This document shows positions 46,942-48,747 of a stretch of 64,000 bases of DNA, one piece after another. The notes under the pieces are model-generated. The model did not search any database. It was given only the letters and a program-made list of their open reading frames with translations, and was not told where the DNA came from. Each line of letters starts with the position of its first letter. The stretch's first letter is position 1. Source of the DNA: Defluviitaleaceae bacterium (GTDB lineage Bacteria; Bacillota; Clostridia; Lachnospirales; WQUN01); the NCBI GenBank assembly GCA_009781755.1, contig WQVD01000001.1, positions 62,001-126,000 of the forward strand. Direction: 5' to 3'. The position numbers were made by a program, and so were the translations under genes.

Positions 46942-47098
46942 TGCATATTATACCCAAATATATAATGCTTACGCAAGTGGTTGGATGTGGAAGGGATAAC
47001 ACGCATCGTGCAATTGAATCCATAAATACATGTATTTTACTTCACTATGACAAATCGCTTGCATCCCTTTTTAGAATGTGCTAGTATACTCTTTGCGT

Positions 47099-47172
<74 letters not shown>

Positions 47173-47400
47173 TCAACTATGTATACGCCCCCGTTGATAC
47201 TAACACTATCACCGGAGGCGTATATTTTTGTGATGCAGGACTTTATAAGGCGTTGAGCACTTTCATCATCCAAAGTGTTCAGCGTCTTTTTACAATTGAG
47301 CGATAATCTTTTCTTTGGTGTTTACAATATCGTCCTTCCATGACAGGGTTTCTTCCAGTTCGGCAATGCAGGTACGGGATTTGCAAAATTTCATTTTGAA
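47173..47400 (-). pseudogene. Decayed serine-recombinase C-terminus
   Basis: In one frame the minus strand reads IAELEETLSWKDDIV then NTKEKIIAQL and stop at 47290; in another frame it continues KKTLNTLDDESAQRLIK then ITKIYASGDSVSI, ending in the tRNA. Together this matches the usual tail of large serine recombinases (KEQI, RLI, FVN-IY-DD patterns). A frameshift splits it and the N-terminus is gone. It is between the tRNA and the TIR gene. Confidence 0.45.
47182..47229 (+). terminator. tRNA terminator hairpin
   Basis: TATACGCCCCCG and CGGAGGCGTATA pair with one mismatch across an 18-base loop-rich centre, followed by TTTTT. On the minus strand the same bases code for the end of a decayed recombinase. 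Confidence 0.7.
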
Positions 47401-47427: not shown

Positions 47428-47829
47428 TTATTTGCTTTCTCTAACCGCTTTTGCAATGCTATCTTTTCTTGCTGCTACAATTGGGATGTTGTTATCCTTG
47501 AAGTATGTAGCGTGTCTTTCAGTTGCACCAGTATCAACTGCTATGACTGTTTTACCTTGGCTGACCGCATAGTCTATTTCTTTGCGAGTAACAGACCCTT
47601 CTCGTGTGGAACTTGGCCTAGCAGGAACTAACACGATACTTGAACTATCAATTTTACCATAAATATCACGCATTAAATAATTTCCTTTTGAATCCAGCGG
47701 TTTGTCTGCTGTTACAGACCTGTCCGAAGGATTCAAACCCGCTCTCTCAGCAGCACCAGCAATTTTGTCGTAATCGTTAGAACCATCCCAGCGATGCGGA
47801 ATAACAATGTTTGTACCTTTTTTACCCAT
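47428..47829 (-). CDS. TIR-like domain protein (MTH538/DUF1863, ThsB-like)
   Basis: This 133-residue protein is essentially a single TIR-like flavodoxin-fold domain. Its pattern is NIVIPHRWDGSNDY at the start, IDSSSIVLVPARPSS in the middle, RKEIDYAV with the conserved Glu, and GKTVIAVDTGATER. This resembles MTH538 and the Thoeris ThsB sensor, which make cyclic ADP-ribose-type signals. GGAGG is five bases upstream. It is translated two bases after the RipA-like gene stop, so it is the second gene of an operon. No ThsA is seen. Confidence 0.7.
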   Translation of the reverse strand: MGKKGTNIVIPHRWDGSNDYDKIAGAAERAGLNPSDRSVTADKPLDSKGNYLMRDIYGKIDSSSIVLVPARPSSTREGSVTRKEIDYAVSQGKTVIAVDTGATERHATYFKDNNIPIVAARKDSIAKAVRESK

Positions 47830-47831
47830 AA

Positions 47832-48359
47832 CTACCTCCTAATAATTGACAAGCGGATACACGTATTCGTAATAGCTGTTAATTCCCCGTTTTCTATTGT
47901 TCCTATGAAAGTAAAAACACTAAGCGCGATGTACAAAATGATGAATAACCACGGCACGATTTTCTCTACATGAGAAAGTGGCCAGTATTTTTTGAACGAC
48001 TTGCCTGCGCCAAGTAATGTCCATTCATGTGAAAAAAGGTTAAGCGGTAATCGACTTTCAATTTCATGGATTAGCATAAATTTTCCAGTATTCAGCTGAC
48101 CGTAACTTCTTATACTGAAAAACCATGATAATGCGAGAATAATCCCAATAAAGGATACTAAATGAATATGACTTCCAAAATCTTCTTGGAACCATGACGC
48201 AACCGTTAACAACGTTGCATTTGCTGTTACGTAAAAACCATTTGCTACAGCACGCCTTTGGCTAATTCTGTCACCCAGTTCAACGTACAATTTATACTGC
48301 TCGAACAGCATTTTTTCATAATCCATATTGTCGCATTGCCGTTCATTAAACAGAGCCAT
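47832..48359 (-). CDS. RipA-family octameric-type membrane protein
   Basis: This 175-residue protein has four membrane segments (about 38-58, 66-86 and two more, the last about 136-158) separated by helical cytoplasmic parts. The N-terminal EQYKLYVELGDRISQRRAVAN and IHEIESRLP/WTLLG motifs match proteins named RipA-family octameric membrane proteins. I infer a pore-like effector; function is not established here. The start is ATG 48359, preceded by a run of nine G bases (plus-strand C9 at 48364-48372). It precedes the TIR gene in one operon. Confidence 0.7.
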   Translation of the reverse strand: MALFNERQCDNMDYEKMLFEQYKLYVELGDRISQRRAVANGFYVTANATLLTVASWFQEDFGSHIHLVSFIGIILALSWFFSIRSYGQLNTGKFMLIHEIESRLPLNLFSHEWTLLGAGKSFKKYWPLSHVEKIVPWLFIILYIALSVFTFIGTIENGELTAITNTCIRLSIIRR

Positions 48360-48440: not shown

Positions 48441-48507
48441 TATCATGCATGGTTGCTGTTGTCAAACAAAATCCATCAAGTTTCTACTGATTTTCCATGA
48501 AATCTAA

Positions 48508-48747
48508 AGGATTAAGAATAAATTAAATTATTCCATCAACCACAAAGAGGATCTTCTGAATGATGGTATATGTGGTTGCTTTAATTGCACGGAAATATTT
48601 GATCCGAGAATAATTGTTGAATGGGTTAAAGACAAAAGCGGAACCGCCATTTGCCCGTTTTGTGGTATTGATTCAATCATAGGGCAGGGTAGTGGATACC
48701 CTATTACAGAAGAATTTTTATCAAAAATGAAACGGCATTGGTTTTAG
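48508..48747 (+). pseudogene. 5'-truncated zinc-ribbon 'cytoplasmic protein' fragment
   Basis: The frame is open for 79 codons and has no ATG, GTG or TTG start at the front. It reads INHKEDLLNDGICGCFNC, then CPFCGIDSIIG and GYPITEEFLSKM to stop, a pattern common to small bacterial proteins with two CxxC pairs. The ribosome site AAAGG at 48507 is followed only by ATT. I think it is the 3' part of a lost gene; its function is unknown. Confidence 0.55.

Follow-up and report, generated by a model that had tools for sequence, protein, structure and literature searches.

A recurrent gene pair encoding a ThsB-type TIR protein and a small 8xMP membrane protein as a candidate Thoeris-like module

Thoeris types differ in the effector that accompanies the TIR protein. 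In PMC12847820, PMC12948488 and PMC11204291, the TIR protein is described as the maker of an ADP-ribose-derived signal and its neighbour as the effector, a SIR2-SLOG protein in type I. Type II uses a His-ADPR signal, which activates a membrane-perturbing TM-macro effector (PMC12847820 and PMC11204291). In type IV, N7-cADPR made by the TIR protein activates a caspase (PMC12847820). The label 'Thoeris type III' occurs in PMC12390725, in a passage that does not define it.

The locus described here combines a TIR protein of this kind with a different partner. The window, the whole 64,000-nucleotide stretch of Defluviitaleaceae bacterium DNA that was analysed, encodes on its minus strand a 175-aa membrane protein of the 8xMP, or RipA-type, family (47832-48359; Pfam PF24838) and a 133-aa ThsB-type TIR protein (47428-47829; Pfam PF08937, PADLOC ThsB). 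Two general hallmarks of Thoeris, a ThsB-type TIR protein and the conserved TIR glutamate, are found here. The pair resembles type IV Thoeris in its adjacent two-gene layout and in TIR proteins of the same clades (nearest pairs 51-70% identical), but 8xMP takes the place of the caspase (Peptidase_C14). No Peptidase_C14 match was found in the window's genome, with Synechococcus elongatus positive as the control. With type II the pair shares a TIR protein alongside a membrane effector, if 8xMP acts as proposed below; the type II effector is a TM-macro ThsA, whereas the 8xMP of the window has no macro match. The likeness to type I is the ThsB-type TIR protein, and the difference is the SIR2-SLOG ThsA, since the 8xMP matches neither SIR2 nor SLOG. 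A STALD search across the window's genome gave no match, and its control also gave none anywhere, so a ThsA may still be encoded elsewhere in this genome. Judged by the sequence of its effector candidate, the pair falls outside Thoeris types I, II and IV. A literature search, with most subscription papers outside its scope, found no description of a TIR-8xMP pair. The pair may already have been named, for example as 'type III' Thoeris.

The two genes are arranged as a compact unit. The 8xMP gene comes first and the TIR gene follows after a gap of two bases. The coordinates of the minus-strand operon given in a preliminary description of this DNA are correct. A Shine-Dalgarno-like AGGAGG (47835-47840, minus strand) lies within the final codons of the first gene, immediately upstream of the TIR start, and is likely the ribosome-binding site of the TIR gene. 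A longer 8xMP reading frame starts at 48446 and would encode 204 aa. The 175-aa start was chosen because a G-rich stretch precedes it and the starts of relatives agree. Scans for promoters and terminators gave results at chance level. The GC content of the gene pair is 39.2%, compared to 48.6% for the window, in line with the lower GC noted in the preliminary description; 3.7% of the window's 932-base stretches are equally low.

Several methods agree that the second protein is a TIR domain of the MTH538/ThsB type, the assignment first made from the sequence alone. The protein matches ThsB_TIR in Pfam (PF08937; E=1.6e-5, 25.6 bits against a cut-off of 21.2) and ThsB in PADLOC (E=4.3e-5). NCBIfam has no match for either protein of the pair, and a sequence search of the PDB likewise found none for either. 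A profile built from 11 related TIRs matches MTH538 (1.2e-6), the Bacillus cereus TIR structure 8fz9 (4e-6) and ThsB chains (0.006). An AlphaFold2 model was made from 10 sequences (mean pLDDT 77.5). In Foldseek the model has only two matches at E <0.001, both of TIR type: ThsB in the ThsB-Tad3 structure 9b7d (E 5.1e-4) and B. cereus 8fz9 (E 7.5e-4). VIA-align places the model on ThsB 6lhy with a Z of 11.9 (2.5 A over 113 residues) and on 8fz9 with the same Z, while the highest rows are DNPH1 chains, a related fold (Z 13.1). These rows raised a reading of the protein as a deoxynucleotide hydrolase or deoxyribosyltransferase. It was set aside because the sequence family is ThsB_TIR and both Foldseek matches below 0.001 are ThsB or TIR.

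The conserved glutamate of TIR domains is catalytic in other TIRs. In the window's protein it corresponds to Glu84 (codon at 47578-47580, minus strand), which aligns with the Glu of ThsB 6lhy. Glu84 is conserved as Glu and Ser38 as Ser in 30/30 aligned TIRs, covering both of the effector types discussed below. In the comparison with ThsB that had been proposed as a check, the model takes a TIR fold, its top-ranking PDB structures include ThsB and other TIRs, and the Glu is retained; the outcome named as refuting, another fold lacking this Glu, did not appear.

The first protein belongs to PF24838 (E=1.4e-34, 119.3 bits against a cut-off of 30), in agreement with its earlier reading as a RipA-family membrane protein. 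Francisella RipA is presumably the namesake of the family. PF24838 is the only Pfam family matched, with no SIR2, SLOG, macro or other known ligand-binding domain, which is also how the partner was originally described. PADLOC has no match for it. In the AlphaFold2 model of a single chain (mean pLDDT 77.6), residues 12-56, 62-103 and 127-174 form three long helices. The hydropathy profile shows strong membrane segments at two places, 65-83 and 134-152, and, by eye, a weaker one at about 41-57, so the earlier term 'four-helix' was inexact. Residues invariant in two alignments include Tyr22, Lys23, Arg36, Lys93, Glu101, Glu112, Trp113 and Glu132, among others. By our reading of the topology, these residues probably lie mostly on the cytosolic side. 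The 8xMP sequence profile finds no solved relative in the PDB, and Foldseek with the model returns nothing below E 0.001; the best match, at 0.65, is a designed nanopore. VIA-align also lists a designed pore and ClyA/AhlB (Z up to 10.9). No inference was drawn from these pore-like rows because their Z is lower than what, by the tool's own warning, helical bundles commonly reach.

The pair recurs well outside this genome. We gathered 40 distinct loci through their 8xMP genes, from 7 genomes of the window's phylum, 1 MAG, 24 plasmids and 8 viral contigs. The plasmids are 24 of 31 matching records, each taken at one place, with 3 further Leptolyngbya and 4 haloarchaeal records left out. Together the loci span the window's phylum, plasmids from four bacterial phyla and from haloarchaea, and viral contigs. 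A ThsB-type TIR gene lies within 250 bases of the 8xMP gene in 28/40 loci, as counted with TIR profile models derived partly from these same loci. By source, the paired loci make up 5/7 genomes, 1/1 MAG, 16/24 plasmids and 6/8 viral contigs; they are not 28 independent events, as the haloarchaeal loci include several near-copies. The two reading frames overlap or are separated by a few bases in the majority of the 28. Pfam places 11/13 partner proteins checked, including the window's, over the ThsB_TIR cut-off. The other two are those of L006, which matches TIR_2 below the cut-off, and L050, which matches TPR only, leaving a TIR domain in the L050 partner unconfirmed. By these sequence counts, the pairing of TIR and 8xMP is beyond chance, and the concern that the two genes might be neighbours by accident is not borne out.

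Both families are sparse. The 8xMP subfamily occurs in 6/295 genomes of the window's order, and four relatives from the same genus have no 8xMP match. Across 398 genomes from the phylum, the TIR profiles match 21 places. The window's own TIR has no relative on the viral contigs, and phage records gave no 8xMP match. Broken copies are common. Among the 28 paired loci, the TIR gene is cut short in L040 and has an in-frame stop in L005, and the 8xMP gene of L036 is split around a transposase-like ORF. In two of the TIR-less loci, L043 and L044, the 8xMP itself is truncated. These broken copies suggest rapid turnover of the pair.

By the models, 12/40 loci have no ThsB-type TIR. Besides the truncated L043 and L044, they include L006, with its TIR_2 match below the cut-off. 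Eight of them have other neighbours (L009, L010, L029, L032, L050, L051, L053 and L055), and in L009 an annotated TIR gene lies 2.5 kb upstream. The 8xMP genes of L010, L029, L032 and L051 are of an actinobacterial type. A DUF4328 gene stands upstream in L010, with similar proteins, by eye, near L029 and L032. It is possible that the TIR-less actinobacterial-type 8xMP works with a different partner. A SLOG-like neighbour seen by eye in L010 was dropped, as Pfam gives it no match. On a Rhizobium plasmid (L054, 1-3465), the 8xMP gene directly follows a gene for an NB-ARC-annotated WD40-repeat protein, and no TIR match lies close to it, which raises the possibility that 8xMP works with NLR-like sensors too. 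The 28 paired loci, for their part, include one of unusual order on a small Helicobacter pylori plasmid (L061, 2965-3723), where a short 8xMP-like frame with no annotation and a TIR-like gene converge at a distance of 94 bases; the tandem order is usual elsewhere. The link to TIR proteins appears to be a property of the window's 8xMP subfamily. Six sampled members of other PF24838 subfamilies (L011 and L013-L017), all over the Pfam cut-off and from a sample of 398 genomes, have no TIR match in their loci, which extend roughly 1.5 kb on either side or stop where the contig ends.

Similar TIR proteins also occur beside caspases. In the phylum sample, places were counted for ThsB-like and MTH538-like profiles at E <1e-20. 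The ThsB-like profile gave seven places, of which five have a caspase (L080, L081, L084, L085 and L096), one has 8xMP (the window) and one has neither (L083). The MTH538-like profile gave four, two with a caspase (L071 and L079), one with 8xMP (L070) and one with neither (L072). On viral contigs, the MTH538-like profile found seven loci: five with 8xMP, one with a caspase (L064) and one with neither (L067). All nine caspase neighbours used here, those named above and that of L030, match Peptidase_C14 over the cut-off. The Paenarthrobacter plasmid of L030 (475-4435) carries a TIR-caspase pair and a TIR-8xMP pair, separated by 1.7 kb.

On a tree of 30 TIRs, of which 21 are paired with 8xMP and 9 with a caspase, the effector labels require at least 6 changes, 4 of them forced by well-supported branches, and part of the tree is poorly resolved. 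Clustering by effector is weak, with 6 changes compared to a mean of 8.0 after shuffling, and values as low occurred in 36/500 shuffles. A single clade of 8xMP-paired TIRs is rejected (p-AU 8e-40). The window's TIR falls in a clade of five with support 100/100, three of which are caspase-paired, and its nearest relative is caspase-paired and 44% identical. TIRs with differing effectors are up to 70% identical (L012/L064 70%, L007/L080 60%, L042/L080 58% and L002/L085 51%). In the opposite direction, the 8xMP of L012 and that of the window are 68% identical while their TIRs are 10% identical. As exchange runs both ways, a shared small-molecule signal is favoured over a dedicated protein contact, which would be hard to square with these partnerships.

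We therefore consider it probable that the pair is a Thoeris-like two-gene anti-phage module, with the TIR protein as signal-maker and 8xMP as membrane effector. On infection, the TIR protein would convert NAD+ to an ADP-ribose-derived signal. The signal would dock on the conserved, probably cytosolic, face of a putative 8xMP oligomer, which may then open or cluster and so break the membrane barrier. The infected cell would halt before phage production. Since TIRs of the same clades are found beside caspases too, N7-cADPR or a close isomer, as in type IV Thoeris, is the most likely signal, by analogy with the published caspase system. 8xMP is assigned the effector slot because published TIR neighbours are effectors and the exchange fits a shared molecule. 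The preliminary description had proposed a TIR-triggered membrane effector. Exchange with caspases supports its first half, a TIR-triggered effector. For the second half, 8xMP is observed as a conserved neighbour in 28/40 loci, and by analogy with the published systems it may be the effector. A wider proposal is plausible but tentative. It holds that these TIR enzymes share their messenger with TIR-caspase systems, that the small 8xMP reads this messenger directly, and that caspase and 8xMP are plug-in alternatives in a widespread, unrecognised Thoeris-like class of bacteria and archaea.

A direct complex would explain some of the same observations with no diffusible signal. The TIR protein would dock on an 8xMP oligomer and open it, or would be kept inactive by the contact. 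The tight spacing or overlap of the genes in most of the 28 loci fits such a complex. The clustering of g2 TIR partners on the 8xMP tree (4 changes compared to a shuffled mean of 9.5) is also expected from contact. However, TIRs that resemble one another may have either 8xMP or an unrelated caspase as partner, similar 8xMPs pair with TIRs that are only 10% identical, and the Glu is kept in every one of the 30 TIRs. We judge a direct complex unlikely.

The roles could also be reversed. Membrane proteins are capable of sensing, and 8xMP might be a sensor or anchor for a phage-disturbed membrane, with the TIR protein as an NADase killer that drains NAD+. Direct NAD+ depletion by some bacterial TIRs is described in PMC12847820. 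Against this, caspases, the effectors of type IV Thoeris, are found beside TIRs of the same clades, and one TIR clade would then require two unrelated sensors. This arrangement is quite unlikely.

The surroundings of the pair give a mixed picture. A tRNA-Met (CAT) adjoins it on the plus strand (47098-47174; ARAGORN), and its anticodon stem has, by eye, the three G-C pairs of the initiator type, in line with the tRNA-fMet noted earlier. In a genome of the same genus (G001), a 415-aa tyrosine integrase (L105, 1542-2995; PF00589, E=4e-24) lies 129 bases beyond the matching tRNA-Met. Since the integrase adjoins the matching tRNA there, the tRNA-Met is probably an integration site, and a hotspot in the genus is likely. 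A search of the window for another copy of the tRNA 3' end gave none. The flank stretch read earlier as a decayed recombinase is a short open stretch. An orphan frame with CxxC pairs at about 48560-48740 on the plus strand, apparently a gene fragment as first described, has no Pfam match over the cut-off. The analysis thus confirms the two genes of the pair but not these two flanking remnants.

As for the suggested defence island, the scanned flanks of the pair in the window encode an ECF sigma factor, an AraC-type regulator, an HTH protein and a DUF6106 protein, with no recognised defence gene among them. Three near relatives adjoin restriction-modification genes: L002 has a type II restriction enzyme together with a C5 methylase, L040 has a type II methyltransferase, and L005 has a restriction enzyme of type III. 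One further neighbour was scanned in each of L012 (no Pfam match) and L042 (a WYL-domain regulator), and neither is recognised as defence. The window's flanks and the broken copies among relatives would suit a non-immune role of the pair, or a module inactive in this genome, but this is very unlikely, as both window genes are intact with their conserved residues, close relatives adjoin restriction genes, and the pair is carried on plasmids and viral contigs.

If the Thoeris-like reading is true, TIR-based immunity gains a membrane effector class, and part of the 8xMP family gains a possible role. A 175-residue protein that is both nucleotide sensor and membrane actor would be exceptionally small for an immune effector. 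Exchange of effectors also predicts that the TIRs of TIR-caspase pairs activate 8xMP, and vice versa. This prediction bears directly on how modular messenger and effector would be.
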